Assembly: GCF_028609865.1 (NCBI RefSeq)
Contig: NZ_CP063194.1
Span: 1,364,001 to 1,428,000, forward strand
Direction: 5' to 3'
DNA from: Corynebacterium jeddahense
GTDB lineage: Bacteria; Actinomycetota; Actinomycetes; Mycobacteriales; Mycobacteriaceae
DNA: 64,000 nt
Part shown: positions 1-16,291 of the stretch, piece by piece
How positions within the stretch are numbered: the stretch's first letter is position 1
Layout of the letters: every line of letters starts with the position of its first letter
Made by a program: the position numbers and the translations under genes
The notes under the pieces: generated by a model
Told to the model about the DNA's origin: nothing
Databases searched by the model: none
The model's input: only the letters and a program-made list of their open reading frames with translations

Positions 1-23
1 CCCACTCTAAGATGTGGGGCACC

Positions 24-854: not shown

Positions 855-2507
855 GCCGCTGATCACGCCGTTGTCGTCGACGTCGATGGTGTTGGCGGCG
901 GGCTGTTTCGGCAGGCCCGGCATCGTCATCACATCGCCGGTGAGCGCGAGAACGAATCCGGCGCCGGTGCGCGGGATGAGGTTGCGCACGTGGAGCGTGT
1001 GGCCGGTCGGTGCCCCGAGCCGCGCCGGGTCGTCGGAGAAGGAGTACTGCGTCTTGGAGATACAGACCGGCAGGGAATCGAAGCCGTTGTCCTTAAGCGT
1101 CTGCAGGTCCTTCAGCGCGGCCGCGGAGTACTGCACGTCGCCGGCGCGGTAGATCTCGCGCGCAATCGTCGCGATGGAGTGCTCGACGCCGTCCGCCGGG
1201 TCGTAGAGCGGGTGCGAACTGCCCTCGACGAGGTTGTCCAGCAGCGTCTGCGCGAGCTCGATGGCGCCGTCGCCGCCGGCGGACCACACGTCGGCCTCCG
1301 CGAGCGCGACGCCACGCTCTTGCGCCCACTGCTTGACGTAGGCGAGTTCGGCCTGGGTGTCCGTCGCAAAGCGGTTGAGCGCGACGACCGGGGTGACCCC
1401 GAACTTGCGCACGTTCTCGACGTGGCGCTCGAGGTTGGCGATGCCGGCCTCGAGCGCCGCGACGTTCTCCGCGGCGAGGTCCGCCTTGGCCACGCCGGCG
1501 TTGTGCTTGATCGAGCGGATCGTGGCGACGATGACGGCGCCCGCGACGTCGAGGCCGCCGTAGCGGGCCTTGATGTCGAAGAACTTCTCCGCGCCCAGGT
1601 CGGAGCCGAAGCCCGCTTCGGTGAGCACGATGTCCGCGTACTGCTGGGCGGTGCGGGTGGCGATGAGCGTGTTACAGCCGTGGGCGATGTTCGCGAACGG
1701 GCCGCCGTGGATAAACGCGGGCGTGCCGCCGAGGGTCTGCACGAGGTTCGGGTTCACCGCGTCCTTGAGCAGCGCTGCCATCGCGCCCTGCGCCCCGAGG
1801 TCGCCCGCGGTGACCGGCTTGTTGTCGTAGGTGAGCCCGACGGTGATGTTGGCCAGCCGGCGCTTGAGGTCGGCGAGGCCCGTGGCCAGGCCGAGGATCG
1901 CCATGATCTCGGAGGCGGCGGTGATGGTGAACCCGGTCTCCGCGGGCACGCCGTGGGCCGGGCCGCCGAGGCCGGTGACCACGTTGCGCAAGCTGCGGTC
2001 ATTGACATCGAGGCAGCGCTGCCACGTCACGCGACGCGGGTCGATGCCAAGCGCGTTGCCCTGGTGGATGTGGTTGTCGATGAGCGCGGCGAGCGTGTTG
2101 TTGGCGCTCGTGATCGCGTGGAAGTCGCCGGTGAAGTGGAGGTTGATCTGCTCCATCGGCACGACCTGCGAGTAGCCGCCGCCGGCCGCGCCGCCCTTGA
2201 TGCCCATCACCGGGCCGAGCGAGGGCTCGCGCAGCGCCACCATGGCGTTCTGGCCGAGCTTCGCCAGCGCGTCGGTGAGCCCGATGAGAACGGTGGACTT
2301 CCCCTCCCCCGCCGGCGTCGGCGAGACGCCCGTGACCAGGACGAGCTTGCCGGGCGAGCCCGCGGGCACCTGGGTGATATCTACCTTGGCCATGTGCTTG
2401 CCGTACGGGATCAGCGCGTCTTCTGCGACGCCGGCCTTCGCCGCGATCTCGGTGATGGGTTTGAGGGTGTGGGCTTGGGCGATTTCGACGTCGGAACGAG
2501 TGCTCAT
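846..2507 (-). CDS. fhs: Formate--tetrahydrofolate ligase
   Basis: Full-length 553-residue ligase that makes 10-formyl-tetrahydrofolate from formate, THF and ATP, feeding purine synthesis and one-carbon metabolism in the cytosol. The ATP-binding P-loop (SPTPAGEGKS) is at about residues 62-71, followed by the conserved SLGPVMGIKGGAAGGG block typical of the family. It starts only 4 nt after the dcu stop codon, so it is probably co-transcribed with dcu and possibly aspA. A link between formate assimilation and anaerobic aspartate/fumarate metabolism is inferred from position only. Confidence 0.95.
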   Translation of the reverse strand: MSTRSDVEIAQAHTLKPITEIAAKAGVAEDALIPYGKHMAKVDITQVPAGSPGKLVLVTGVSPTPAGEGKSTVLIGLTDALAKLGQNAMVALREPSLGPVMGIKGGAAGGGYSQVVPMEQINLHFTGDFHAITSANNTLAALIDNHIHQGNALGIDPRRVTWQRCLDVNDRSLRNVVTGLGGPAHGVPAETGFTITAASEIMAILGLATGLADLKRRLANITVGLTYDNKPVTAGDLGAQGAMAALLKDAVNPNLVQTLGGTPAFIHGGPFANIAHGCNTLIATRTAQQYADIVLTEAGFGSDLGAEKFFDIKARYGGLDVAGAVIVATIRSIKHNAGVAKADLAAENVAALEAGIANLERHVENVRKFGVTPVVALNRFATDTQAELAYVKQWAQERGVALAEADVWSAGGDGAIELAQTLLDNLVEGSSHPLYDPADGVEHSIATIAREIYRAGDVQYSAAALKDLQTLKDNGFDSLPVCISKTQYSFSDDPARLGAPTGHTLHVRNLIPRTGAGFVLALTGDVMTMPGLPKQPAANTIDVDDNGVISGLF

Positions 2508-2511
2508 GCCT

Positions 2512-3822
2512 TCACACTACAGCCGCGCCGATGGCGTATCCGAGGATCACGCTCACGGCGACGCACACCACCCCCGGCACGAGGAACGGGTGGTTGAACA
2601 CGTACTTGCCGATGCGGGTCGAGCCCGTGTCGTCCATCTCCACCGCGGCGAGCAGTGTCGGGTAGGTCGGCAGCACGAACAGCGCGGAAACGGCGGGGAA
2701 CGCCGCGAGCGCGGTGAGCGGGCTCACCCCGATGGAAAGCGCCGCGGGGATGAGCGCCTTCGCCGTCGCGGCCTGCGAGTACAGCAGCGACGCCGCGACG
2801 AAGAGCACGACCGCGAGCAGCCACGGCTGCGCGGTGAGCACGCCGCCGGCGATGCGCTTGATGTCGTCGAGGTAGTAGTCGATGAACGTGGTGCCCAGCC
2901 ACGCGACGCCGAGCACGCACACGCAGGCGGACATGCCGGAGCGGAACACCTGGGTGTTCAGGATCTCGGCCGCCGTCGTCTTCGCTACCAGCACGATCGC
3001 GGCGGCCGCGGCGAGCATGATCGCCATGATCGCCTCGTTGCGCGGCACCGTCGGGTTACTGATCAGCCCGATCTGGTCTGAGATGAGCGTCGCGTACACC
3101 ATCACGACAAGGATGGCGGCGGCAAAGATGCCCACCGACGCCTTCGCGCCGCGCGGAGCGGCGTAGTTGGAGCGTTCGCTTGGCGACGAGACGAGCCCGT
3201 CCGCAACGCGCTGCCGATAGACCGGGTCGTCCTCGAGCTCGGGGCCCATGCGGTTGGCCACCCACGCCATCGGGAAGATGGCGAAGAACGTCGCCGGGAC
3301 CATCACGGCGAGCAGCTGCAGGTAGCCGACGCCGTGCGGCTCGAGCGCCGAGGCCATAAACACCACCGCCGCGGAGATCGGCGACGCCACGATGGCCATC
3401 TGCGAAGCGATAACGGCCGCCGACAGCGGACGCGACGGGCGCACGCCGCCCTCCTTCGCCACCTCCACGATGACGGGCATGGTGGAAAAGGCGGTGTGCC
3501 CCGTGCCGGCGAGCACTGTCATGAGCCAGGTGACGATCGGCGCGTAGACGGTGACCCGCTCGGGGTTGCGGCGCAGGAAGCGCTCCGCGATGTCCACGAG
3601 GTAGTCCATGCCGCCAGCGAGCTGCATCGCCGAGATCGCGGCGATAACGCACATGATGATGCCGATGACGTCGAACGGGATCGCGTCGACAGACACGGGC
3701 ATCCCGGTGGCGCCGAGCAGGAGCACCCCGAGGCCACCGGCGAACCCGATGGCGATGGAGCCCATGCGGGCGCCGAGGATGATCGCACCGAACAGGATGA
3801 CGAGGTGGACCACGAGAAGCAT
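2512..3822 (-). CDS. Anaerobic C4-dicarboxylate transporter, Dcu family
   Basis: A 436-residue polytopic inner-membrane protein of the DcuA/DcuB family, which exchanges or takes up aspartate, fumarate, malate and succinate. It starts directly with a hydrophobic helix and shows alternating hydrophobic segments along its length, with family motifs such as GTGHTAFSTMPVI (about 105-117) and FPAVSALFVLPTYPT near the C terminus. It lies between aspA and fhs on the same strand; together with aspartase this fits aspartate/fumarate use, including fumarate as electron sink. A GATAAT element at 3829-3834 lies 6 nt before the ATG, so it may also have its own leaderless promoter. DcuA and DcuB cannot be told apart here. 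Confidence 0.9.
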   Translation of the reverse strand: MLLVVHLVILFGAIILGARMGSIAIGFAGGLGVLLLGATGMPVSVDAIPFDVIGIIMCVIAAISAMQLAGGMDYLVDIAERFLRRNPERVTVYAPIVTWLMTVLAGTGHTAFSTMPVIVEVAKEGGVRPSRPLSAAVIASQMAIVASPISAAVVFMASALEPHGVGYLQLLAVMVPATFFAIFPMAWVANRMGPELEDDPVYRQRVADGLVSSPSERSNYAAPRGAKASVGIFAAAILVVMVYATLISDQIGLISNPTVPRNEAIMAIMLAAAAAIVLVAKTTAAEILNTQVFRSGMSACVCVLGVAWLGTTFIDYYLDDIKRIAGGVLTAQPWLLAVVLFVAASLLYSQAATAKALIPAALSIGVSPLTALAAFPAVSALFVLPTYPTLLAAVEMDDTGSTRIGKYVFNHPFLVPGVVCVAVSVILGYAIGAAVV

Positions 3823-3875
3823 GCCCCAATTATCCTCTATTCGTCACACCAATCGGAAACGCGCCGGGTGCGGGG

Positions 3876-5405
3876 CTACTCGGCCTCCGGGTACGGCTCC
3901 TCGGCGGTGTCGCCGGCCGCGCTCGGCACGTGGGTCTCGCCGTGCTGCGCTTGCGACTCGCTCGACTCGCTCTGCTCGTGCTCCGAGTCGTCCACGTAGA
4001 GCTTGCCCCGGTACTCCGGGTGCATGAGGTTTTCCTTGCTCAGCAGCTTCTTCAGGTCGTCTTCCTCGATGAGGCCCTTCTCCAGCACGAGGTTGTAGAC
4101 GCTCTTGCCCGTGGCCGCCGCCTCACGCCCGATGACGTCGCCGTTGTGGTGGCCGATGACCGGGTTGAGGTAGGTAACGATGCCGATGGAGTTGGTCACG
4201 TACGCCTCGCACACCTCCTTGTTCGCCGTGATGCCGTCGACGCACTTCTCGCGCAGCGTCTGCGCGGCGTTGGTGAGCAGGCGGATGGACTCGAACAGCG
4301 ACTGCGCGATGACCGGCTCCATGACGTTGAGCTGCAGCTGGCCCGCCTCCGCGGCCATGGACACGGTGGCGTCGTTGCCGAAGACCTTAAAGCAGACCTG
4401 GTTGACCACCTCCGGGATCACCGGGTTCACCTTCGCCGGCATGATCGACGAGCCGGCCTGGCGCTCCGGGAGGTTGATCTCGTTGAGGCCGGCGCGCGGG
4501 CCGGAGGAGAGCAGGCGCAGGTCGTTGCAGATCTTGGAGAGCTTCATCGCCGCGCGCTTGATCGCGCCGTGCATCATGACGTAGCTGCCGGTGTCGGAGG
4601 TCGCCTCGATGAGGTCCGGCGACGCCTGGATGTTCAGCCCCGTCACCTCGCGCAGCGCGGCGACAACCTGGTCCTTGTAGCCGCTCGGGGTGTTGATGCC
4701 GGTGCCGATGGCGGTCGCGCCGAGGTTGACCTCGAGCAGCGACTCGGCCGCGTTCGAGATCGTGCGCTGCTCCTCGCTCAGGTTGGAGCCGAACGCCGTG
4801 AACTCCTGCCCCAGCGTCATCGGCACGGCGTCTTGCAGCTGGGTGCGGCCCATCTTGATGATGTCGGCGAACTCGTCGCCCTTCGCGCGGAACGCCTTCT
4901 GCAGCTTGTCCAGCTCCTCAAGGAGCTCCTGCACCGCGTAGTAGACGCCGAGGCGGAACCCGGTCGGGTACGCGTCGTTCGTGGACTGCGACATGTTGAC
5001 ATCGTCGTTCGGGTTGATGACGTCGTACTCACCCTTCTCCCTGCCGAGGTGCTCGAGCGCCAGGTTGGCCACGACCTCGTTGGTGTTCATGTTCACCGAG
5101 GTGCCGGCGCCACCCTGGAAGACGTCGGTCGGCCACTGATCCATGCAGCGGCCCTCGTCGAGGATCTGGTCGCAGGCCCACACGATCGCCTCGGCCTTGT
5201 CGCGCGGCAGGACGTGGAGGCGGCGGTTCGCCAGCGCGGTGGCCTTTTTCACCTGCACCATGCCGCGAATGAACGCCGGGAAGTCGTTGATGGTGCTCTG
5301 GGAGATCTGGAAGTTGTCCACCGCACGCAGTGCGTGGATGCCGTAGTAGACGTCGGCGGGGACCTCGGCGGTGCCGAGCAAATCTTCTTCAGTACGAGTT
5401 GTCAT
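3876..5405 (-). CDS. aspA: Aspartate ammonia-lyase (aspartase)
   Basis: A 509-residue member of the fumarase/aspartase superfamily that converts L-aspartate to fumarate and ammonia. The superfamily signature [11 protein letters not shown] is intact (about residues 317-327), as is [12 protein letters not shown] upstream (about 132-143). The last ~40 residues are acidic and rich in Glu/Ser/Gln, extending beyond the usual enzyme end. The ATG is preceded by a TATAGT element at 5413-5418 with a 7-nt gap, suggesting a leaderless transcript. It heads a same-strand cluster with dcu (53 nt downstream) and fhs. Confidence 0.95.
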
Positions 5406-5500
5406 GGCGCCAACTATACGCAGGTAGCGGCACTATTCCACGGGCCGCAAAGGTGTCATCTTCCGGCCGCGAACCGCCACGCACGCGACCTGCGCGTGCA

Positions 5501-5518
5501 CCTCTATCGAAATAGAGG
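5501..5518. repeat. Short perfect hairpin between the HAD gene and aspA
   Basis: CCTCTAT (5501-5507) and ATAGAGG (5512-5518) form a 7-bp stem with a 4-nt CGAA loop. It lies just beyond the 3' end of the HAD-hydrolase gene and upstream of the aspA promoter. There is no T-run, so it is not a classical intrinsic terminator; it may end or stabilise the upstream transcript. Confidence 0.4.
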
Positions 5519-5569
5519 AAGCCGAAGAGTCCCACGCAGAGGCGGCCCGGCGGTTCCCCCCGTTCGGGC

Positions 5570-6244
5570 CTAGCGGGCGGCGGAAAACCACATGTCCACG
5601 TCCGCGGCGGACGCGCCAACGAACACGCGGGGGTCGAACGGCGTCACACCCGCCGGCACCCGCTCCGCGAGCCCGAGCACGACGCACCCCGCATCCGCAG
5701 CGGCGGACATGCCGCTCCACGAATCCTCGAATACGAGGCAGTCCCGCGGCTCGGCGCCGACGCGCCGCGCGGCCTCGAGGTACATGTCGGCGGCGGGCTT
5801 CGGGTGCGCGACCTCGTCGCCGGTGATCGTGTCGGTAAAGTACTCCCGGCCGATCGCGTCGATGCACGGGTCGGCGAGCTCGCGCTCCGTGTTCGTGGTC
5901 ACGAGCATCGGCGTGCCGCGCTGCGCCAGCGAGGCCAGGATGTCGGCGACCCCGGGGTTGCACTCGATGCCCTCGGCGAATAGCTCACCCATGCGGGCAT
6001 ACATCCAGGTGCGGTAGTGCTCGAGGTCGCCGTCGACAAGCGAATAGCCCGCCCACTTGGCGACGATGCCGAGCGTGTTGGCGAAGCTGCCGCCGACCGT
6101 CTTCGCGCGCACCTCGGGCGTGAGCGGGCGGCCGAGCAGCTCGCCGAGCTCGTAGGTGGCGATGCCCCACAGCGGCTCGGTGTCGATGAGGGTGCCGTCC
6201 ATGTCCCAGAAGACGGCGGCCGGGGATGCTGCCGCGCTACTCAA
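5570..6244 (-). CDS. HAD-superfamily hydrolase (phosphatase/phosphoglucomutase-like)
   Basis: A 224-residue haloacid-dehalogenase-type hydrolase of the subfamily that includes beta-phosphoglucomutase and small phosphatases. Motif I WDMDGTLIDT is at about residues 13-22, motif II is the VTTNTERE segment, motif III the lysine in HPKPAADMYLEA and motif IV FEDSWSGMSAAADAG. The best start is a TTG at 6244 that overlaps the stop of the upstream gene by 8 nt, suggesting translational coupling; the first internal ATG would remove part of motif I. The substrate is unknown. Confidence 0.85.
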   Translation of the reverse strand: MSSAAASPAAVFWDMDGTLIDTEPLWGIATYELGELLGRPLTPEVRAKTVGGSFANTLGIVAKWAGYSLVDGDLEHYRTWMYARMGELFAEGIECNPGVADILASLAQRGTPMLVTTNTERELADPCIDAIGREYFTDTITGDEVAHPKPAADMYLEAARRVGAEPRDCLVFEDSWSGMSAAADAGCVVLGLAERVPAGVTPFDPRVFVGASAADVDMWFSAAR

Positions 6245-6644
6245 AATCGGGCAGCTCGTGCAGCGCCTCGTCGGTGGCGCCGGTAGCGGCGCAAGCGCGG
6301 AAGACGAGGGTCTCGATGTCGGCCTTCTCCTCCGGCTCGAGCACAGCGGAGGCGTGCTTCTCGTTGAACTCGTCGAGGTTCTCGTAGAAGGGGCCGACCA
6401 CCTTCACCAGCTGCTCGCCCTCCGGGTCGTCGCCAAGCTGGTCGAGCGCGTCGAGAAACATCTCGAGGATGTGCTTGAGGTCCGGCAGCACGGCAGGGTC
6501 GAACGGCTCCTCCCACAGGTCCCGGTCGTCATCTTGGAGGTAGGACCCGGTGGCGAACGTGGTCAGGTCGTCAATGAATTCGTCCACGTCGGGCTGGAAT
6601 TGGGCCCGGATTGAGGTATCGGCAGCGGCGCTCATGCCATCCAT
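6237..6644 (-). CDS. Conserved acidic hypothetical protein
   Basis: A 135-residue, strongly acidic, predicted cytosolic protein with many Asp/Glu residues and no signal peptide or membrane segment. I do not recognise a named domain. It begins 15 nt downstream of mshC and its stop overlaps the start of the HAD hydrolase, so mshC, this gene and the HAD gene probably form one transcription unit. An alternative ATG at 6635 would shorten it by three residues. Function is unknown; a role connected with mycothiol synthesis would be speculation from position only. Confidence 0.75.
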   Translation of the reverse strand: MDGMSAAADTSIRAQFQPDVDEFIDDLTTFATGSYLQDDDRDLWEEPFDPAVLPDLKHILEMFLDALDQLGDDPEGEQLVKVVGPFYENLDEFNEKHASAVLEPEEKADIETLVFRACAATGATDEALHELPDFE

Positions 6645-6659
6645 TGTGCTGGAGCGGGG

Positions 6660-7874
6660 TCAAATGCGCACGCCGAGCAGGCCGTCAACGGCGGTGGCGA
6701 CGATGCGGTCGTGGTCGCCGGAGGTGGCGTCGAGAAGCGAGAGCGCACGAGGGGTGTCCAGGTCGTCGGCGAGGGCTTCGCGCAGCGTCGCGACGGTCGC
6801 GAGCGCCTCGTCCTTGTCCACATCTTTGGCGAGGTTCTCGCGCCAGCGCGCCAGGCGGGCCTCCGCCTCGTCGAGGATGCGGTCGGAGAAGTCACGGTCC
6901 GTGCGGTAGTGCCCGGCGAAGACGGCGAGGCGGATCGCCGACGGGTCGTGGCCCGCCTCGGTGAGCTTGTGCACGAAAACGAGGTTGCCGAGGGACTTCG
7001 ACATCTTCACCCCGTCGAGGGCGATCATGCCCGCGTGGACGTAGTGGCCGGCCATACGGTCGATGCCGTGCGCGGCCTCGGCGTGCGCCGCGGAGAACTC
7101 GTGGTGCGGGAACGCGAGGTCGGACCCGCCGCCCTGGATGGCGAAGTGGGCGCCGAGGCGGTTGGTGGCGATGGCGGAGCACTCGACGTGCCAGCCCGGG
7201 CGCCCGGCCCCGAACGGCGAGTCCCACGCGGGCTCGCCGTCGCGGTGGCCGCGCCAGACAAGCGCGTCGAGCGGATCGCGCTTGCCCTCGCGCTGCGGGT
7301 CCCCGCCTCGCTCGGCGAAGTACTCCTCCATCGTCGCCCGGTCGAGGTTCGACTCGTAGCCGAACTGCTCAGTGGCTTCGATGGAGGCGTAGATGTCCCC
7401 GTGGTCGAGCTCGTAGGCCGCGCCGACCTCGAGGAGGCGCTGCACGAGCGCGATGACCTCGTCGACGGACTCCATCGCGCCGACGTAGTCGCGCGGCGGG
7501 ATGACGGCGAGAACCTCCATGTCGCTGCGGAACAGGTCGATCTGGCTCGTGCCCAGCTCGCGCCAGTCCACCCCGTCGCGCGCGGCCCGCTCGAACAGCG
7601 GGTCGTCAACGTCCGTGATGTTCTGCACGTAGTGCACCTTGTGCCCGTTGGCCAGCAACTGGCGCTGCGCGAGGTCGAACGTGAGGTACGTGGCGGCGTG
7701 GCCGAGGTGCGTCGAGTCGTACGGCGTGATGCCGCAGACGTACATGCCCACCTCGCCGTTGGCGTCGCCTGTGGTGTCCACCGCTTTCACCCGCTGATCC
7801 GCGGTGTCGTAGAGCTTTAGCGGCACCGGGGTGCCGGCGACGGCGGGGACGGACGGGGCGGGCCATGCATGCAT
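6660..7874 (-). CDS. mshC: Mycothiol ligase: cysteine--1-D-myo-inosityl 2-amino-2-deoxy-alpha-D-glucopyranoside ligase
   Basis: A 404-residue class I cysteinyl-tRNA-synthetase homologue that couples cysteine to GlcN-Ins, the ATP-dependent step of mycothiol synthesis. The HIGH-like motif is STHLGHA (about residues 50-56) and the KMSKS motif VKMSKSLGN (about 280-288). Cys in MYVCGIT and HVECSAIA are zinc-ligand candidates. The protein lacks the tRNA-binding extension of true CysRS. The start ATG at 7874 gives the usual N terminus (MHAWPAPSV) and lies 7 nt after a TAGGGT -10 element (7882-7887); a GTG nine bases upstream falls inside that element. Mycothiol is restricted to Actinobacteria. Confidence 0.95.
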
Positions 7875-7893
7875 GCGCACCACCCTACCGCGG

Positions 7894-8742
7894 TTACACG
7901 GGTGCCATGACGCCGGCGGCGAGCAGCACCATGACGATCACGCCGAGCGGGATGCGGTACGCGGCGAACCAGGCGAACGAGTGGTTGGAAACGAACTTCA
8001 GCAGCCACGCGATGGACACGTAACCGAGGGCGAACGCGACGGCCGAGCCGACGAGCAGCTGCGCGCCGCTCGCCGCCTGGCCGGCCTGCGGGTCGAACGC
8101 GTCCGGCAGCGAGAAGAGACCCGACGCGAGCACCGCCGGGATGGCGAGCAGGAAGGAAAAGCGCGTGGCCACCTCGCGGTCGACGTTGCGGAACAGCCCG
8201 CCGGAGATCGTGCCGCCGGAACGCGACACGCCCGGGATGAGCGCGAGGCACTGCCACAGGCCCATGATGATCGCGTCCGCCATCGTCAGGTCCTCGTAGC
8301 CGCGCGTCTTCTTGCCCATCCGCTCGGCGAGGATGAACACGAAGGAAAAGACGATGAGCACCGTCGCCGTGATCCACAGGTTGCGGAAGTTGTCGCGGAT
8401 GAGGTCCTTGAGCAGCACGCCGGCCAGGCCGACCGGGATCGTGCCGGCGATGACCATCCAGCCCATGCGGTAGTCGAACCCCCGCTTCGATGCGTCCGCC
8501 AGCCCCGCGAACCAGGCGGTGAGGATGCGCCAGATGTCTTTGGCGAAGTACACGAGCACCGCCAGCTCGGTGCCCAGCTGGATGACGGCCGTGAAGCTCG
8601 CGCCGGCGTCCTCCCCCCAGAACAGCTGCGAGACGATGCGCAGGTGCCCCGAGGAGGAGACGGGCAGGAACTCGGTGAGGCCCTGCACGATCGACAGGAC
8701 GATCACCTGGAGCCAGGACATAGTGTCGGCGGCGTTTGTCAT
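7894..8742 (-). CDS. uppP: Undecaprenyl-diphosphatase (BacA type)
   Basis: A 282-residue membrane enzyme that dephosphorylates undecaprenyl pyrophosphate to recycle the lipid carrier for peptidoglycan and arabinogalactan synthesis; the family also confers bacitracin tolerance. The signature [15 protein letters not shown] lies near the N terminus (about 19-33) and the second signature PGVSRSGGT in the middle. Several hydrophobic helices span the length. It ends 19 nt before mshC on the same strand. An internal ATG eight codons downstream is a possible alternative start. Confidence 0.95.
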
Positions 8743-8814
8743 GGCGTCAGAGACTACCCCGCGGGTGGCGCACGACCTATGAGCGCCTCGTGCGCGTTGC
8801 TAGAATTTTCGCCT

Positions 8815-9903
8815 GTGAAGTTCCACCGCCCGTTGCACTCCCCCTCCCGCACCCGCGTATCGACGACCTCCGGCACCGCCCGCGCTCTGCCCGCCCTCGC
8901 CGTGGTGCCCGTCCTAGCCGCGGCGGTGCTCGCGGGCTGCGGCGCCTCCCCCGAGGCGAAGATCGAGGAGGCCGGCGGCGAGGCGGCCGCGAACATGGGC
9001 AGCGCCGAGCCCGCGCACTCCCCGGCGGCGGCGCACCCGGCGGGCGAGGTCGTCGACTTCGAGGCCGTGCGCGACCTCGATGCCACCGACGGGGTTATCG
9101 GCGTGCGCACCGACTCCGCGCTCATCACCGGCACACTCGAAGACATCCGCGCGGGCAAGGGCGACCGCCACGAGCTCGACTCGTCCTGCGGCGAGGCCTC
9201 GGCGAACGCCGGGACGTTCGCGGTGGCCTGCGACGGCGAGATCCGCCTGTTCGGCGCGCAGGAGCAAACCATCCCCACCGACCGGCCGGTGACGGTGGCC
9301 ACCGTGGTGTCGTCAGGCGAGGTGCTCGCCGCGAGCGACTCGGAGCGCAAGGTGTGGGTCTTCCGCGACGGCGAGCTCGCGGACACGTTCGACGTCGCGC
9401 GCGAGACCGACCAGCTCCAGGCGGCCCGCGTCGACGGCCAGGCCGATTCGGTCGTGCGCACGAACCGCTTCGACACCACCATCCAGGACCTCGACTGGCA
9501 GGGCAAGCGCCAGGGCGGCACGCTGCGCGTCGGACTCGGCGTGGGCAAGATCGCCGCCGGCGACGGCGGACTCGTGCTCGCCGCGGACTCGACCGGCTCG
9601 CAGCTATGCGTCTACACCACCGACAGCATCGTCCGCCTCCAGCAGACCGCCCCGGTGCCCGACGGGCCGTGGGACGTCGCCTGGGATCCCGCGCAGCGCC
9701 TCGCCTGGGTGAGCTCCCTCGCCGTGAACACCGCCACCGGCTACGACATCTCGCAGGGCGTGCCGCTCAAGCGCGCGGAGTTCCCCACCGTCGCCGACGC
9801 GCAGAGCATCATCGCGCTTGACGACGGCACCGTGGTCGCCGCCTCCGCCACCGGCGGAGGCATCCAGATCGTCCCGCCCGCCGAGCAAACCCGCACTTCG
9901 TAA
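8815..9903 (+). CDS. Secreted lipoprotein of unknown function
   Basis: A 362-residue lipoprotein: an N-terminal hydrophobic stretch ends in the lipobox VLAGC, with lipidated Cys at residue 42. The following ~40 residues are an Ala/Glu/Pro-rich linker, then a region of short repeated beta-rich units ([48 protein letters not shown]) suggestive of a beta-propeller, which is an inference. The GTG start is chosen because a TAGAAT element (8801-8806) lies 8 nt upstream and the signal peptide begins directly after it. It is followed 25 nt later by pyrD. No enzyme motif is recognised. Confidence 0.8.
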
Positions 9904-9928
9904 CATGAGCAGCAACGAGGAGGACCCA

Positions 9929-11020
9929 ATGGCCGACAAGGTGACGCTCTACGACCGCGCGCTGCGCGCGATGTTTCTGCTCCCCCCGGAGCGCATCCAC
10001 GGCATCATCAGCGGCGCGCTGCACGTGTTGCACACCGTCACGCCCGCGAACCGCGTGATGGAGAAAGTCGTGCGCGTGCACGACCCGGTGCTGCGCCAGA
10101 CCGTGTTCGGGGTGGACTTCCCCGCCCCGCTGGGCCTCGCCGCCGGCTTTGACAAGAACGCCGAGGCGATCGACGCCTGGGGCGCCATCGGCTTCGGCTA
10201 CGCCGAGATGGGCACCGTGACCCCGAAGCCGCAGCCGGGCAACCCCGCACCCCGTCTGTTCCGCCTGCCCGAGGACAAGGCGATTTTGAACCGGATGGGC
10301 TTCAACAACAAGGGCGCGCTTACGGTTGCGGATAACCTTCGGGCGCGCCGCTCCCGTGATGTAGTGGGCATCAACATCGGCAAGAACAAGACGAGCGAGG
10401 ACGCCGTGGCCGATTACCGCGCCACCGCGACGCTGCTCGGCGGGCTGGCGGATTACCTCGTGGTCAACGTCTCCTCCCCCAACACGCCGGGCCTGCGTGA
10501 TCTCCAGGCTGTAGAGGAGCTGCGTCCGATCCTGGAGGTAGTAAAGAAGTCCACCACTACCCCGGTGCTGGTGAAGATCGCGCCAGACCTTTCCGACGAA
10601 GACATCGACGCCGTGGCAGACCTGGCCGTGGAGCTGGACCTGGCCGGCATTGTGGCCACGAACACGACCATTTCCCGCGATGGGCTGAAAACGGACGCAG
10701 CCAAGGTGGAAGCCATGGGGGCAGGCGGGGTGAGCGGAGCTCCCGTTGCCAAGCGCTCGCTCGAGGTGCTTAAGCGCCTCAACGAGCGCGTGGGCGACAA
10801 GCTGGTGCTGGTTAGCGTCGGCGGCATCTCTACGCCCGAGCAGGCGTGGGAGCGCATTGCCGCGGGCGCGAGCCTGCTGCAGGGCTACACCCCGTTCATT
10901 TACGGCGGGCTGGGCTGGATCCGCGGCATCCACCGCGGGATCGCCGCGCAGATTAAAGCCCACGGCCTGGACTCAATTGAGCAGGCCGTGGGCAGCGGGC
11001 TGGAGTGGAAAGCGCTCTAA
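9929..11020 (+). CDS. pyrD: Dihydroorotate dehydrogenase (quinone), class 2; possibly mosaic
   Basis: A 363-residue FMN enzyme of de novo pyrimidine synthesis that oxidises dihydroorotate at the membrane with quinone as acceptor. The FMN-site motif [13 protein letters not shown], the class-2 catalytic serine in [23 protein letters not shown] and SVGGIST are all present. The start ATG at 9929 has an AGGAGGA Shine-Dalgarno 4 nt upstream; the ATG at 9905 is less well placed. The 3' third is repeated in diverged form at 13327-13555. From about 10.3 kb onward the codon choice looks less GC-extreme than in the 5' half, so the 3' part may have been replaced by recombination (inference). Confidence 0.95.
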
Positions 11021-11057
11021 GCTTGACCGGCTGCGCTGCGGCGCAGCACCACCGCGC
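10706..11057 (+). repeat. Copy A of the pyrD 3'-end direct repeat
   Basis: This stretch holds the functional 3' end of pyrD and the first ~37 bases beyond its stop. It aligns without gaps to 13327-13494 (offset 2621) and, after an 86-nt gap in copy B, to 13495-13592 (offset 2535). By eye the coding part is about 85 % identical, so this is not a recent exact duplication. It contains the hairpin GCTGCGC-TGCG-GCGCAGC at 11030-11047, which recurs at 13565-13582. The two copies bracket the accessory insert. Confidence 0.9.
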
Positions 11058-11459
11058 CCACCTGGGTTCGGGAACCTCACCGATCAACTCCAGCGGCGGC
11101 CCGGGACGCGGACCACCTGTCGTGGCTGTCTTGGGCTGAGTGTGGCTTGGCTTTGGGCAGTGCGTTGTACGCATTGCCGTGGTGATGCGGTCGCGTGCTA
11201 GACGGCGTGGAGAACCCTAGAATGATCGTGCTTCTTAAAGGCCCGTTTGGGTGTGAAAGCTAGATTCGAAGTTAGCTGGTAGAAGCGCATCGCACGGAGG
11301 GTGACCGACCATTAACCAGACCCTATTTCAAAAATCGCTCACGTGGCAAGTCGGGTAGAGACTTGCAGCTGCGGTGGCAGCAATGCGCAAAGACGAAGTG
11401 TGCATTACTCTTACGAGCGCCAGCCGTGAGTTAAATATCGCTTCGGCGTCCGTACGCAT
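11058..11459. other. Non-coding left part of the accessory insert
   Basis: About 400 bases without a convincing gene. The first bases (CCACCTGGGT) match a later part of the flanking membrane gene near 13708, so a remnant of that gene's end is fused here with an internal deletion. The rest is lower in GC than the surroundings. A TAGAAT sequence at 11218-11223 could be a -10 element for the genes that follow, with no clear -35 partner. No tRNA, integrase or insertion sequence end was recognised. Confidence 0.55.
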
Positions 11460-11475
11460 TTGGAGGTATACAGTC

Positions 11476-12092
11476 GTGAAAAACACTACGCCTTACGTTC
11501 TTTCCTAAGTGCAGTGACCGTGATGAGCTTGACATTGAGCTTTTTGCCAACTGCGACAGCTCAACCACCGAAACCTAGTGTCTCACCGATGAAACCATCG
11601 GATCCCGCATCATTTACATCCGATCAAGAGCAGTTGTCAAACGGTATATCCAAGGGCTTCGAGACCTTCTTCACAGAAATCGTCTACGAAAAGTCCCCGG
11701 GTGACTGGGCTATTAACTACGACGACGCTAGCGAAATGGGCCTTTCCCGCGAAGACGCCGATATACTCGCCGCGTTCATGGGCTCCCCCGATTCATACAC
11801 AGATGGCACGGCGGTCACGACGTACGACCTCGGAACTTTCGGCCAATGTGTTGTATCTAATGCCCTCGGTATTCCCTTAACGTGGGCCGACGGTCAAGAA
11901 ATTGGTCGCTACCTGAAGAACAAGCAATGGAAACTCGCGGCTGACAAAATTGTCTCACTCGCCGCGGTATACGGCGCGACCGCTTCCCTCGAATACGGCA
12001 TCAAAGCCCTGGGCGGCCCGGCAGTGAGGGCGGGGCAGCTCGCTCTCTACGCGGGTTCATGCGCGGTTAGTGAGCAAATTCACATTGGTTAG
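11476..12092 (+). CDS. Secreted two-cysteine protein, bacteriocin-precursor-like, with apparent 5' frameshift
   Basis: A secreted protein of about 205 residues if a frameshift is corrected. A GGAGGT Shine-Dalgarno (11462-11467) precedes a GTG at 11476, but that frame stops after ten codons. Adding one A to the A5 run at 11479-11483 joins the GTG to the long frame and yields an ideal signal peptide (Lys-Lys n-region, hydrophobic core, cleavage near TATA-Q). As it stands, the long frame is open from a TTG at 11460 without its own ribosome site, or from ATG 11523. The mature part is Ser/Pro-rich, then has an Asp/Glu-rich middle and a hydrophobic C-terminal ~70 residues with two cysteines (FGQC, AGSC). 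No family is recognised with certainty. Size, secretion, paired Cys and the SdpI neighbour recall SDP-type toxins, but sequence similarity to SdpC is not evident. Confidence 0.55.
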
Positions 12093-12103
12093 GAACTTAT
12101 AGT

Positions 12104-12412
12104 ATGGGTTCTCGGTTTGAAATGGGATTCGGGGGTGCACTTGCCGCACGAGAGGAGAATGGGGCACCATGGGTTCCGCCATGGTGGCAGAGCTTCGTTA
12201 TCGTGCCTCTCGCAGTGATTGCCATGTATATTGTGTTTCCTGTCGGCACCGATTCCAACACGCGGTCCCCGAACCCAGGCGGCTCAATCTGGAACAATTT
12301 GAGCTTGGATCACTTAATCGCACCGGTGACCTTTACATTAGGCGTATATTACCTATTGATTTTGCCGATCTTCTATCTCCGCAGGTATCGCTGGAATAAG
12401 AAGAACCGCTAG
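12104..12412 (+). CDS. Small two-helix membrane protein of the accessory insert
   Basis: A 102-residue protein with two predicted transmembrane helices (about residues 30-47 and 75-91) and a basic C-terminal tail (RRYRWNKKNR), so both ends are probably cytoplasmic. The ATG is 11 nt after the stop of the secreted protein and an AGGAA sequence (12091-12095) is a fair ribosome site. No known domain is recognised. Its place between a secreted protein and an SdpI-family protein suggests export, processing or immunity, which is inference. GC content is lower than in flanking core genes. Confidence 0.65.
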   Translation: MGSRFEMGFGGALAAREENGAPWVPPWWQSFVIVPLAVIAMYIVFPVGTDSNTRSPNPGGSIWNNLSLDHLIAPVTFTLGVYYLLILPIFYLRRYRWNKKNR

Positions 12413-12638
12413 TAGTTTTGCAGCGCCTGCAAGCTCTCGTCGATGGATCTCGCTGAATTTTATTTGGACGCCACCGCAGGACTCCTGAGTCATGCGGGTT
12501 ACTTTGAGCGGTTCGGGTAAGCGCTGTTGGAGCGTGAACAGCTCGACGAATCCGTAGTTCAAACTTTTGAACGCACCTCACGTGCTTTTGACGATTAGAC
12601 CAGCACTCCGTCGTTTCGATTTTGAAGGTGATTTACAA
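12413..12638. other. Intergenic stretch within the accessory insert
   Basis: About 225 bases between the two membrane-protein genes. A short open frame exists on the minus strand (12353-12562), but it has no supporting ribosome site or recognised domain and overlaps the upstream gene. No clear terminator or promoter is seen. It may be remnant DNA of a lost gene. Confidence 0.4.
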
Positions 12639-13010
12639 GTGGGTTCCGCCCTTGCGATTTCTGCCTTGGCCCTCCTATTTTTCGGCGTGAATTCCCTGAT
12701 ACTGTGCAGAAGGACGGTAAACGGAACGAACTCGCGCAACGGTGGTTTTGGAATTCGAACTCAAGCGACCAGAACTAGCGACGCGGCATGGAACGCGGGG
12801 CACAGAGCAGCCGTCCCACTACTGCGGGCCTTTGGTGTTCTCGGCATTCTCTTCGCCCTACTCCTCGTCGTAATTGGCCTCCTTGCACCCAACATATGCG
12901 CGCGACTAGGAATAGCCATCCGGTTAATCGCCTACGCAGTTGCGGGCAGTGGATTTTTTATTGCGGTGAAGAAAGCTGATTCCGCTGCCAGGGGCGTTAG
13001 CGAGCAATGA
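12639..13010 (+). CDS. SdpI-family membrane protein (putative immunity protein)
   Basis: A 123-residue membrane protein with an N-terminal helix, then the SdpI/YhfL-family loop FGIRTQATRTSDAAW-x3-HR (about residues 37-56) and two further helices. In Bacillus subtilis SdpI gives immunity to the SDP toxin; many actinobacterial members are short single-domain versions like this. The GTG at 12639 is preferred because GAAGGTGAT lies about 8 nt upstream and the protein then begins with its first helix; an upstream TTG (12567) would add 24 polar residues. Being in the same small insert as a secreted two-cysteine protein makes an immunity role plausible but unproven. Confidence 0.75.
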   Translation: MGSALAISALALLFFGVNSLILCRRTVNGTNSRNGGFGIRTQATRTSDAAWNAGHRAAVPLLRAFGVLGILFALLLVVIGLLAPNICARLGIAIRLIAYAVAGSGFFIAVKKADSAARGVSEQ

Positions 13011-13315
13011 TAGACACCATCTAATACAGCGGTCTGAGTAAGCAACGTACGGCGGGCCGAAAATCACGATGACGATAGCGTAGCCGGCGGGCTCCGCCCC
13101 TCAAAATTGGGAGGATCCACGGTGTCGCGACTGCCACAACGACGAGCCCGCACGACGGCGTTTTTTGGGCAGCGCCGCCTGTTGCGGACCGTGCAGCCGC
13201 TATGTACCCGATGCAGAGCGCGCTAGCATAGAACCCCATGGCAGCACCTTCGGACCATGGGTCGCCAAGATTCCTGGAACTTTCAATGTAGCGGAAAGTA
13301 GAAACAAGCCGACAG
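13011..13315. other. Right part of the accessory insert, no convincing gene
   Basis: About 300 bases between the SdpI-family gene and the pyrD remnant. The composition rises back toward the genome average. A 72-codon minus-strand frame (13021-13239) has two hydrophobic stretches but no ribosome site or recognisable domain; it could be a decayed membrane gene. A TTTTTT run at 13161-13166 follows GC-rich bases but no clean terminator stem was found. Confidence 0.4.
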
Positions 13316-13555
13316 ACGATGCCGAGGTCGAGGCCATGGAGGTCGGCGGGGTAAGCGGAGCTCCCGTCTCTAAGCGTTCGCTCGAGGAGCTCAAGCGCCT
13401 CAACGAGCGAGTCGGATACAAGCTGGTGCTGGTCAGCGTCGGTGGCATTTCCACCCCGGAGCAGGCGTGGGAGCGCATCGCCGCGGGCGCGAGCCCACGG
13501 CCTGGACTCGATTAAGCATGCCGTGGGCAGCGGGCTGGAGTGGAAAGCGCTCTAA
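13316..13555 (+). pseudogene. pyrD 3'-end remnant (copy B)
   Basis: A truncated second copy of the C-terminal part of dihydroorotate dehydrogenase: [28 protein letters not shown] and [20 protein letters not shown] are recognisable. Relative to pyrD it lacks everything before about codon 255 and has an 86-nt internal deletion at 13494/13495 (microhomology AGC), which shifts the frame to a stop at 13513-13515. The last ~40 bases again match the real pyrD end, including the TAA at 13553-13555. It directly abuts the converging membrane-protein gene, as an intact pyrD end would in an uninterrupted locus. Confidence 0.9.
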
Positions 13556-13908
13556 GCGTGTCCGGCTGCGCTGCGGCGCAGCACCACCGCGCAAAGTCCG
13601 GCGGCGAGCGCCCAGCCGATCAGCCAGAACGGCGTGGTGGCCATGAGTTCGGTGTCGGGCGCGATGAACCCGAGCCCGATGAGCACCACGGCCGCGAGCA
13701 GCGCGCCCACCTGGGTGCGCGAGCCTTCTTGTTTCGTGTTGTAGGTGGCGAAGGCACCGACGATAGCCACCGCCGCGATGACGGAGAGCACCTGCGGGGT
13801 GACGGGGAACGCGGCGTCGCCGCGGAGCAGCGCCAGCACGGCGTAGAGCACGAGCACGAGTGCGATGCCCATGAACGCGCCGCCGGCGCGGAGTTGCACT
13901 GGAACCAT
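13552..13908 (-). CDS. Small four-helix membrane protein
   Basis: A 118-residue protein with about four hydrophobic helices and a basic/alanine C-terminal tail; no enzyme motif. Its stop codon overlaps the TAA of the pyrD remnant in a 4-nt CTAA convergent overlap, so in the ancestral locus it was the gene facing pyrD tail to tail. A deleted fragment of its 3' end is also present just after the functional pyrD (11021-11067). It reads toward pyrD and starts 10 nt before the YbhB-like gene's stop. Function is unknown. Confidence 0.75.
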   Translation of the reverse strand: MVPVQLRAGGAFMGIALVLVLYAVLALLRGDAAFPVTPQVLSVIAAVAIVGAFATYNTKQEGSRTQVGALLAAVVLIGLGFIAPDTELMATTPFWLIGWALAAGLCAVVLRRSAAGHA

Positions 13909-13918
13909 TCGGCGAATC

Positions 13919-14452
13919 TTACTGGTTCTCGTACCAGCCCCAGATGATTGCTCGGCCGAGCGAGTGGAAGTTCAGGTTGAAGCCGAGCTGCGTGGGGTTG
14001 GCAATCTCGTCTGCGGGCAGCTCCGTGTCCACCGCGTGGACGGCAAACAGGTAGCGGTGCGGGCCGTGGCCGGCCGGCGGGTTCGCGCCGTAGAAGCCCT
14101 GCACGCCGCTGTCGCCGGTGAGCACCACCGCGCCGATGCCGAGGCCATCCTTCGCGCCCGCGCCGGCGGGCAGCTCGGTGACGTCAGCCGGGATGTTGAA
14201 CGCGGACCAGTGCCAGAAACCGGAGGCGGTCGGCGCGTCCGGGTCGAAGCAGGTCACAGCGTACGTCTTGGTGCCCTCCGGGGCGCCGGACCAGGACAGC
14301 TGCGGGCTGGTGGCGTTATCGCCGGCAAGCGTGTCGGCGAGGCGCTCGCCATCGACGATGTCCTCGGAGGCGATGTCGAAGGACGGCACGTCCGCGAGCG
14401 GGGCGTACGGGTCGGGGCCGGGGAAACGGTCGGAATCGTAGGAAGTAGTCAT
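13919..14452 (-). CDS. YbhB/YbcL-family (PEBP-like, Raf-kinase-inhibitor-like) protein
   Basis: A 177-residue cytosolic protein of the phosphatidylethanolamine-binding-protein superfamily. The ligand-site segments SPQLSWSGAPEGTKTYAVTCFDPDAP (read in two parts) and GFWHWSAFNIPADVTELP, and the later GYYGANPPAGHGPHRYLF-like segment (here GFYGANPPAGHGPHRY) are characteristic. Bacterial members have no firmly known role. It lies 10 nt upstream of the four-helix membrane protein on the same strand, and may be co-transcribed with it. Confidence 0.9.
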   Translation of the reverse strand: MTTSYDSDRFPGPDPYAPLADVPSFDIASEDIVDGERLADTLAGDNATSPQLSWSGAPEGTKTYAVTCFDPDAPTASGFWHWSAFNIPADVTELPAGAGAKDGLGIGAVVLTGDSGVQGFYGANPPAGHGPHRYLFAVHAVDTELPADEIANPTQLGFNLNFHSLGRAIIWGWYENQ

Positions 14453-14485
14453 GCCCCCATTCCTACCCGAGCGCCCCCGGGCGCG

Positions 14486-16291
14486 CTAGTAACCAGCGCC
14501 ACTCCACGCGGTGAAGAGTTGCGCGTATCTCCCGCCCGCGGCGAGCAGCTCGGCGTGGGTGCCGTCCTCGATGATGCGCCCGGCGTCCATGACGAGGATC
14601 CGATCCGCGGCCGCGGCCTGGTCCAGGCGGTGGGCGACGACAAGCGCGGTCGTGCCACGGGTGATCTCCGCCGCCGCCTGCTCGAGGGCGTTGGTCGCGT
14701 CGCTGCCCGCCTCCGCGGTCGCCTCGTCCAAGACGAGCACCTTCGGCCCCGCGAGCGCGACGCGGGCGAGCGCGACCTGCTGCGCCACCTCGGGCGGCAG
14801 TTCCTCCGCCCCCGCCCCAACCCGGGTATCCAGGCCGTGCGGGAACGCGCGGTGGAACTGGGGCGTCGTTTGGCCGAGCCCCACCGTCTCCAGTGCTGCG
14901 AGGAGTGCCGCGTCCCCCGCACCGGGCGCGGCCATCGCGAGGTCCTCGCGGAGGGTGCCCGCGAAGATGTGCACGTCCTGCGTCATGAGGGTGACGTTCT
15001 TCGCGGTCCACCGGTCGCTCACGGTGCCCGTGTCCACGTCCCCGACGAGGATGCGCCCGCCCGTGGGCTCGACGAGCCCGGCGATGAGCGCCGCGAGCGT
15101 CGACTTGCCCGCCCCCGACGTGCCCACGAGCGCCGTCGTCGTGCCGGCGGCGAGGGTGACGGTGAGGCCGTCGAGCACGTTCGCACCGCCCGGGTAGGCG
15201 AAGGTGACGTGGTCCACCACCACGTCCACCGGCGCGGCGAGGTCCGGTGGCAGCGCCGCACCGTCCCTGCCGTCCGCGAGCTTGGCCAGGGCCACCGCGC
15301 GCCCGATCGACGTCGCCGCGCTTTGCATCTCGCCGATGAAGAAGAGCGCGTTGAACACCATCACCTCGGCGCGGATGACCAGGAACACGGCGGCGCTCGC
15401 CTGCCCCGGCGTGATCGCCCCGCCGGAGGCGAGCCACACGCCGAGGCCCAGCGTGAGCAGGACCCAAGCGGCGAAGATGACCTGCCCGATGCCCATGAGG
15501 CGGATGAACCACGGCGCGCGGTCCATGTCCGCCTCGACGGCGCCCCACGACGTGCGCCGCATCCGCGCGAGCGCCCACCGCTCGAGCCCGAACGCGCGCA
15601 ATGTGGGCAGGCCGCGGACCGTATCCAACAGCACGGTGTTGCGGCGCGCCTCCGCCACGCTCACCGCGTTCGACGCGGCCGGGATGCTGCGCACGACGTC
15701 GCGGGCGAACGGGTAGGCGGCCGCCATGAGGAGAATGAGGATGAGCGCGAAGCGGACGTCGATAAGCAAGAGCCCAATCGCGGTGATCGGGAACACGAAC
15801 GCGGTGGTGAGTACGCGCGAGCCGATCGAGGTGATGGTTTGGACGACGTCGTCGATGTCCTTGGTCATGCGGGTGATGACGTTGCCGGTGCCGAGCTCCA
15901 TCACCCGCGGCACGGGTGCGCGCAGGATCGCGTCGAGGCAGCGTCGGCGCAGGTCGATGGACGCACGGGCGACCTTGAGGCCCACTACGTAATTGCCGAG
16001 GGCACGCAAGAACATCTCGACGAGCATGCAGGCCAGCGCTAGGCCGATGGTCATAACGAAGGCGCGGGTGCCGGTTCCCAGCAGTGGCACTGATCCGCCG
16101 GTGAGCGGGTCGACGCTGCGGCCGAACAGGTTCGACTGCGTGGTGTAGACGGCGACGATCAGCGCCTGGATGATCAGCAAACCCGCCCACCAGCGCTTGT
16201 CCAGAGCGTTGGGTAGCGCAGACAGGTACGCGAAGGTCTCCCTCACGCTCGCGGGGGCGACCGCGTCAGTGCGTTCGTACTCGCGCCGCAT
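14486..16291 (-). CDS. ABC exporter half-transporter with active Walker A/B but degenerate signature
   Basis: A 601-residue fused membrane/ATPase subunit of an ABC exporter: six-helix domain (about residues 30-320) followed by an ATP-binding domain (about 355-600). Walker A GTSGAGKS (390-397), Q-loop (MTQD, ~437), Walker B VLVLDE with catalytic Glu523 and H-loop His554 are intact. The ABC signature, normally LSGGQ, is replaced by LPPEV (about 499-503). It starts immediately after the stop of the partner half-transporter, so the two certainly form an operon and probably a heterodimer. The substrate is not deducible. Confidence 0.9.
   Translation of the reverse strand: MRREYERTDAVAPASVRETFAYLSALPNALDKRWWAGLLIIQALIVAVYTTQSNLFGRSVDPLTGGSVPLLGTGTRAFVMTIGLALACMLVEMFLRALGNYVVGLKVARASIDLRRRCLDAILRAPVPRVMELGTGNVITRMTKDIDDVVQTITSIGSRVLTTAFVFPITAIGLLLIDVRFALILILLMAAAYPFARDVVRSIPAASNAVSVAEARRNTVLLDTVRGLPTLRAFGLERWALARMRRTSWGAVEADMDRAPWFIRLMGIGQVIFAAWVLLTLGLGVWLASGGAITPGQASAAVFLVIRAEVMVFNALFFIGEMQSAATSIGRAVALAKLADGRDGAALPPDLAAPVDVVVDHVTFAYPGGANVLDGLTVTLAAGTTTALVGTSGAGKSTLAALIAGLVEPTGGRILVGDVDTGTVSDRWTAKNVTLMTQDVHIFAGTLREDLAMAAPGAGDAALLAALETVGLGQTTPQFHRAFPHGLDTRVGAGAEELPPEVAQQVALARVALAGPKVLVLDEATAEAGSDATNALEQAAAEITRGTTALVVAHRLDQAAAADRILVMDAGRIIEDGTHAELLAAGGRYAQLFTAWSGAGY

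Follow-up and report, generated by a model that had tools for sequence, protein, structure and literature searches.

A probable, partly decayed EntV-like bacteriocin locus beside pyrD of Corynebacterium jeddahense and its candidate immunity gene

EntV of Enterococcus faecalis, also called EF1097, enterocin O16 or enterococcin V583 (NCBIfam NF058576; PDB 7roa), is made as a secreted-type precursor and has been studied as an antifungal and anti-biofilm peptide. It is reported to mature by protease cleavage and to require its disulfide for antifungal activity (PMC6606811), and the cleavage is placed near residues 90-104, which are disordered in the crystal, before the first cysteine, C106 (PMC9562342). 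EF1097 and corynicin JK (YpkK) of Corynebacterium jeikeium were presented as a new bacteriocin family (Swe 2007, cited in PMC9562342 and PMC10683109). A 2017 review counted the immunity of E. faecalis to its own bacteriocin among the points that require study (PMC5454873). For the large bacteriocin dysgalacticin, Sec-dependent export and disturbance of the membrane potential are described, and the adjacent gene encodes a membrane-associated immunity factor, DysI (PMC8308785). Here we analyse a window of 64,000 nucleotides (nt) of Corynebacterium jeddahense (contig NZ_CP063194.1, positions 1,364,001 to 1,428,000; coordinates below are those of the window), which carries a cassette of three open reading frames (ORFs) beside pyrD. 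The cassette is probably an EntV/corynicin JK-type bacteriocin locus that was gained by horizontal transfer and has since decayed in part; ORF2 is its likely immunity gene. In the literature on EntV, corynicin JK and Corynebacterium bacteriocins, no immunity gene of this sort appeared among the matches listed, as judged from titles and abstract openings.

The cassette spans 11460-13010, and its three genes lie on the same strand between pyrD, which ends at 11020, and a second, broken pyrD copy. Protein lengths are given in amino acids (aa).

10957..11057, + strand: left direct repeat, the pyrD 3' end and following bases, 95% identical to 13492-13592
11460..12092, + strand: ORF1, predicted EntV-like secreted bacteriocin precursor (NF058576 match, 7roa profile match, both cysteines invariant)
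12104..12412, + strand: ORF2, 102-aa two-helix membrane protein and candidate immunity protein, adjoining EntV-like genes at 15 of 28 loci
12639..13010, + strand: ORF3, 123-aa SdpI/YfhL-family protein (PF13630), a cassette-specific paralog
13312..13495, + strand: diverged internal pyrD piece, 85% identical to 10691-10874
13492..13592, + strand: right direct repeat, 101 base pairs, 95% identical to 10957-11057; empty site in genome G002

On sequence evidence, ORF1 is not SdpC but is distantly related to the EntV/corynicin JK family. Read from TTG 11460, its 210-aa product has a signal-like hydrophobic segment (residues 11-29, then ATA), an N-domain, a low-confidence linker and a C-terminal domain with C130 and C201; its start codon is in doubt. 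The EntV_fam model NF058576 matched ORF1 with an expectation value (E) of 1.1e-5 and 25.5 bits, below the curated equivalog cut-off of 130 bits, and aligned residues 42-202 with profile positions 28-162 of 162. A profile of 11 of the relatives then known (A1) matched the EntV structure 7roa in the PDB at E 5.7e-8, so that by both comparisons the similarity to EntV is nearly full-length. Ten of the 11 A1 sequences match EntV_fam when E values up to 1 are admitted, the lowest being 9.7e-9, and the two cysteines, both in the C-terminal half, are unchanged in all 11. A1 includes three sequences that begin past the signal part (L025, L026, L029) and four from loci with other partner types (L035, L036, L037, L039); the broken or partial copies L027, L031, L032, L033, L034 and L038 were left out.

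ORF1 thus resembles EntV in its N-domain and C-terminal domain, its two conserved cysteines and its nearly full-length profile match. The structure model of ORF1 has low confidence at residues 112-121, ahead of C130, much as the EntV cut region lies before C106. Unlike EntV, ORF1 scores very low on the curated model, spaces its cysteines by 71 rather than 61 residues and has a dedicated partner, ORF2. A fold search with ORF1 gave nothing decisive, and the lack of a better 7roa match there is no evidence against the seven-helix fold of EntV136. Corynicin JK, from the same genus as the host of ORF1 and grouped with EF1097, is likened to it by name; streptococcin A-M57 and dysgalacticin with DysI, both large bacteriocins, are likened by description. 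A first-pass annotation of this DNA had seen a secreted two-cysteine protein that was not visibly SdpC, encoded at 11476-12092, and had suggested a new actinobacterial antimicrobial-peptide type. A signal-like hydrophobic segment and the two cysteines were borne out, and no SdpC model was listed for ORF1 or ten aligned relatives. The coordinates, at 617 nt, do not describe a reading frame, and the proposed novelty falls away because ORF1 belongs with a bacteriocin kind already known; what is new is the partner family and a widespread immune-only state.

The window's own toxin copy probably either has a disrupted start or is expressed weakly. Among the candidate starts, GTG 11476 alone has a well-placed Shine-Dalgarno sequence, and it is out of frame with the 210-aa product, while by eye neither TTG 11460 nor the next in-frame start, GTG 11514, has one. 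Because the sole well-placed ribosome site serves an out-of-frame start, this copy is probably inactive or poorly started.

The A1 profile found 28 loci in 25 of 242 Corynebacterium genomes and none in 199 other genomes of an order sample or 295 others of a phylum sample, two samples that overlap in part. Scanning genome contigs gave no relatives with ORF1 alone as query and six loci with A4. No match came from the viral contigs searched, nor from plasmids queried with ORF1, ORF2 and the L026, L039 and L053 proteins. Plasmid searches with the L036 and L066 proteins led to Glutamicibacter (two records) and Bacillus pumilus (four records), and the plasmids bearing these EntV-like genes are small and mobilizable. 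Since Glutamicibacter plasmids carry members, the family is not confined to Corynebacterium. Three retrieved plasmid relatives matched EntV_fam at E 5.2e-18 to 1.5e-20 (65.6-73.8 bits, also under 130).

ORF2 has two hydrophobic segments, in keeping with the two-helix membrane protein noted at first pass, and itself matched no Pfam or NCBIfam family. NdhL matches in two of ten relatives stayed at 19.0-19.6 bits, under the 25-bit threshold, and a profile of ORF2 relatives (A2) matched only a photosystem subunit in the PDB, at E 0.2. A2 found 36 loci in 34 of the 242 Corynebacterium genomes and none in the 295 others of the phylum sample, which marks ORF2 as an accessory gene. It directly follows the toxin at 15 of the 28 toxin loci, counting a broken (G139) and a remnant (G066) copy, with gaps of 11 nt in the window, 12 in G167, 17 in G073, 83 in G193 and 402 in G183. 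Toxin and ORF2 occur in one genome in 16 cases against 3.5 expected (hypergeometric P 5.5e-10, uncorrected for kinship); in G223 both are present at separate places. The partner that tracks the toxin is ORF2, not SdpI. A shorter ORF2 subtype (89-91 aa; L093, L094, L095, L096) begins like the window's ORF2 and has no visible toxin trace.

At the 15 ORF2-type loci the toxin is often damaged. Four toxins (G167, G183, G066, G220) are open and begin, by eye, with a signal-like stretch, ten are broken or without the signal part, and the window's is open with a doubtful start. The N-terminal stretch contains a stop in G232 and G193; by eye, G073 has its signal-like stretch shifted to another frame, and in G139 the 5' end is replaced by a transposase-like piece. 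G070 has lost the N-terminal half of the toxin and kept ORF2 and ORF3. ORF2, by comparison, is open at 28 of its 36 loci, cut by a contig end at one (G194) and broken or partial at seven (G139, G066, G190, G051, G143 and second copies in G167 and G183). Counted as open are G167 and G184, where the scored stop is the gene's own end, as well as G220 and six others that are shorter (88-95 aa) or matched in part at the N-terminus.

At 21 of the 36 ORF2 loci A1 found no toxin at the place ("orphans"). Searching these loci with toxins by tblastn gave C-terminal traces in G194 (E 1.6e-7) and G130 (E 1.7e-5), weaker and short C-terminal matches that stop immediately ahead of ORF2 in G217, G223, G105, G153 and G006 (E 0.095-0.47), and doubtful traces in G187 (E 0.23) and, by eye in the printed frames, G208. 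The remaining 12 gave no toxin trace there by tblastn, and six of these gave chance matches elsewhere at E 0.24-0.98. We considered chance as the source of the traces as well, since each is weak alone except in G194 and G130 and other loci give chance matches with comparable E at different places; we left this explanation because their position directly ahead of ORF2 argues for real toxin remnants.

Six orphan ORF2 copies are under purifying selection: the ratio of nonsynonymous to synonymous substitution rates (dN/dS) was 0.08-0.24 in all 15 pairs. These six of the 21 orphan loci share one chromosomal neighbourhood. For three short orphans, taken as a side set, the values were 0.14-0.20, L093 having been dropped after the motif search missed it, and the ORF2 copies of the window, G070 and G130 gave 0.08-0.25. 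The combination of toxin decay with an open ORF2 and low orphan dN/dS indicates that ORF2 outlives the toxin and is kept by selection, behaviour expected of an immunity gene exposed to the toxin of others. Because relatives so often keep ORF2 after toxin loss, it is a good candidate for the missing self-protection gene. An immune-only bacteriocin pairing has been described in pneumococci (PMC11155488). Two observations pull the other way. The toxin-associated pair G073-G232, the one usable pair among five mostly saturated toxin-associated copies, gave a dN/dS of 0.59 on just 15 changes. G066 has an open ORF2-type toxin, yet of ORF2 it retains just the C-terminal end; a different protector may be at work there, the toxin may not be produced, or ORF2 may be dispensable. 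The six orphans of the main set (L071, L073, L076, L079, L081, L086) lie after a conserved 166-169 aa gene, assigned to DUF3093 at E 1.3e-44 by Pfam in L071, the one scanned.

The cassette is inserted at the pyrD 3' end between the direct repeats. Fractions of guanine and cytosine (GC) are 0.537 in ORF1, 0.520 in ORF2 and 0.561 in ORF3 against 0.684 for the window overall, and sliding-window values of 0.50-0.59 for starts 11000-12750 bear out the lower-GC block seen at first pass. The three same-strand genes between pyrD ends also stand; the second pyrD copy is not one piece but two, 13312-13495 fused to 13492-13592, with the intervening part of pyrD missing. The diverged piece sits within the right end of the cassette and is a leftover of the insertion or of recombination. 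Comparison with relatives had been proposed at first pass. In G002, the nearest relative among the 21 compared (91% across the pyrD end), the cassette is absent and the flanks meet directly: window 9508-11057 and 13492-14600 form one unbroken stretch, an empty site. G070 has the cassette at the same pyrD place, minus window bases 11140-11764, the first half of ORF1. Toxin-bearing ORF2 copies stand in differing contexts, at pyrD in G000 and G070 and elsewhere in G167. Transposase genes, IS3-like by eye, lie next to cassettes in G130 (L080:2237-3151, - strand) and G004 (L119:3928-5161).

ORF3 belongs to the SdpI family, as the first-pass annotation had it: PF13630 matched at E 4.6e-10 to 4.9e-10, with 39.9 bits against a Pfam gathering threshold of 28.2. 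It has three hydrophobic segments. Its start is most likely GTG 12639, which is level with the start of its G167 relative; a longer ORF is possible from TTG 12567. ORF3 is 55% identical to the G167 cassette copy, and core SdpI paralogs match shorter and weaker. PF13630 is found in 240 of the 242 Corynebacterium genomes, with at least two copies in each of the four cassette genomes; because the family is nearly universal in the genus, the label alone says little. C. glutamicum is described as having two three-helix members, TrpP and Cg0900, and no SdpC or SdpR homologs, TrpP having been examined for tryptophan and Fe-S effects (PMC11995493). An SdpI gene lies beside an EntV-like gene at three of 28 loci (G000, G070, G167) and at the toxin-remnant locus of G130, and an ORF3-like copy adjoins ORF2 in all four. 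The divergent ORF3 group occupies six places at E <1e-20; four are these cassettes, and the other two (a second G167 copy on C90, and G206) have no toxin or ORF2 within ~4 kb. A wider SdpI profile, which recovered eight of eight held-out SdpI genes, found no further SdpI in toxin and ORF2 loci with flanks of ~0.3-5 kb. The link of SdpI to EntV-like genes is thus real but minor, and SdpI was rejected as the defining partner.

The first-pass annotation had likened the locus to the SDP system of Bacillus subtilis (SdpABC, SdpI) and read it as a toxin with immunity. The general idea survives; relatives of the secreted protein do occur beside SdpI genes, and no assignment to an enzyme or adhesin family emerged. 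A cannibalism system of the SDP kind, for which the pairing of a secreted two-cysteine protein with a nearby SdpI-family gene would speak, is very improbable and was rejected: neither SdpC (TIGR04032) nor SdpB (TIGR04033), the latter already thought absent at first pass, was found in the window's whole genome while the B. subtilis control was positive (SdpA was not searched for), SdpI-family genes are nearly universal in Corynebacterium, and B. subtilis SdpI is described with six helices (PMC11995493) against the three hydrophobic segments of ORF3. A better rival, still unlikely, makes ORF3 the main immunity protein and ORF2 a helper, for instance in export or processing. In its favour are the known role of SdpI as the immunity protein of SDP, the open ORF3 of G000, G070 and G167 with dN/dS of 0.29 (window-G070) and 0.19 (window-G167), and the tight order toxin-ORF2-SdpI in G167. 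Against this, ORF2 stands beside the toxin at 15 of 28 loci and SdpI, the partner first suggested, at three; the G130 match to ORF3 is limited to residues 1-80 while ORF2 is whole; the close ORF3 relatives G167:C90 and G206 lack both other genes nearby; and an export helper is not expected to outlive its cargo.

A housekeeping role for ORF2, with its place beside the toxin a matter of inherited position alone, is improbable too, if the least so of the alternatives. The shared chromosomal neighbourhood of six orphans and the 12 of 21 orphans without a toxin trace would fit it. Such a role accords poorly with a gene present in just 34 of 242 Corynebacterium genomes and in none of the 295 others, with toxin-bearing copies in different contexts, and with a toxin/ORF2 co-occurrence far above chance, kinship uncorrected. 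That ORF1 is a secreted protein of other function (adhesin, signalling protein or enzyme) merely sharing EntV ancestry ranks below both the helper and the housekeeping explanations. Its score under the curated cut-off and the indecisive fold comparison leave room for this; the nearly full-length match with both cysteines conserved, the better-scoring relatives, which small mobilizable plasmids carry together with a small hydrophobic partner in a usual bacteriocin setting, and the frequent inactivation of the toxin with retention of its neighbour speak for a bacteriocin. On balance we favour the view that ORF2 represents a new protein family devoted to immunity against EntV/corynicin-type bacteriocins; that EntV-like toxins are generally two-gene modules with several unrelated-looking partner types (two-helix, ~140-aa membrane-type, ~89-aa hydrophobic and soluble); and that in Corynebacterium the ORF2-type immune-only state, with an open partner and a toxin that is broken or gone, is commoner than the intact pair.

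The sequences show homology, gene order, toxin decay with ORF2 retained, purifying selection and the insertion; how export, processing, killing and immunity might proceed is inferred. ORF1 would be a Sec-exported preproprotein. By analogy with EntV, its signal peptide would be removed, C130 and C201 would form a disulfide, and a protease would cut the flexible linker near residues 112-121 and free a C-terminal peptide of ~85-95 residues, which may attack competing bacteria, most likely at the membrane. ORF2, with two helices and a short loop probably facing outward, would shield the producing cell; the likeliest way is a block of the peptide, or of the peptide's receptor, at the membrane. ORF3 would be an accessory gene restricted to one subgroup, perhaps adding a second tier of protection or of signalling. 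Because the toxin start is out of register with the ribosome site, the window strain probably retains the locus mainly for protection. In the corynebacterial loci, specific candidates for immunity genes are found together with divergent EntV-like genes, and nature has run the experiment of inactivating the toxin while its neighbour is retained. If the assignment is right, ORF2 would help to find the target of EntV-like peptides, and the immune-only pattern would suggest long exposure of Corynebacterium, a common skin and mucosal genus, to EntV-like weapons.

Partners differ at the remaining 13 of the 28 toxin loci. A partner of 138-159 aa lies directly downstream in G094, G129, G218 and G204 (the last with just a toxin remnant), with a common motif by eye and a hydrophobic segment in two of three measured. 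An 89-aa hydrophobic protein follows at the second locus of G094 and in G223 (126 aa there with the longest start), a protein of 86-102 aa without a hydrophobic segment in G004, G229, G239 and at the second locus of G046, and, by eye, a 75-aa hydrophobic one in G118; G157 and the second locus of G229 have no clear downstream partner. None of five of these partners scanned against Pfam reached the cut-off. The arrangement recurs on the three retrieved plasmids, where the partners (121, 121 and 59 aa) lie 26-27 nt 3' of the toxin. Given these varied small downstream genes, on plasmids alike, EntV-like genes look like toxin/partner modules with exchangeable partners.

The C. jeikeium plasmid pKW4 (NC_003080, which we take to be its accession) was tried as a source of corynicin JK and set aside: in bases 1-14000 of 14323 no ORF was matched by A1 at E <1, and one translated hypothetical protein looks unrelated. 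Its record annotates an aureocin A53 family bacteriocin (L099:8753-8911) and has no EntV-like ORF by A1. B. pumilus pPDSLzg-1 (L146:1-751 and 5890-6650) carries two EntV-like genes under one protein accession, each followed by the same 59-aa hydrophobic protein. In C. pseudodiphtheriticum DSM 44287 a 679-aa membrane protein on the opposite strand (L142:1550-3589) adjoins an EntV-like gene; it has a sub-threshold match (E 0.0033) to DUF1430, a domain tied to bacteriocin-associated membrane proteins.

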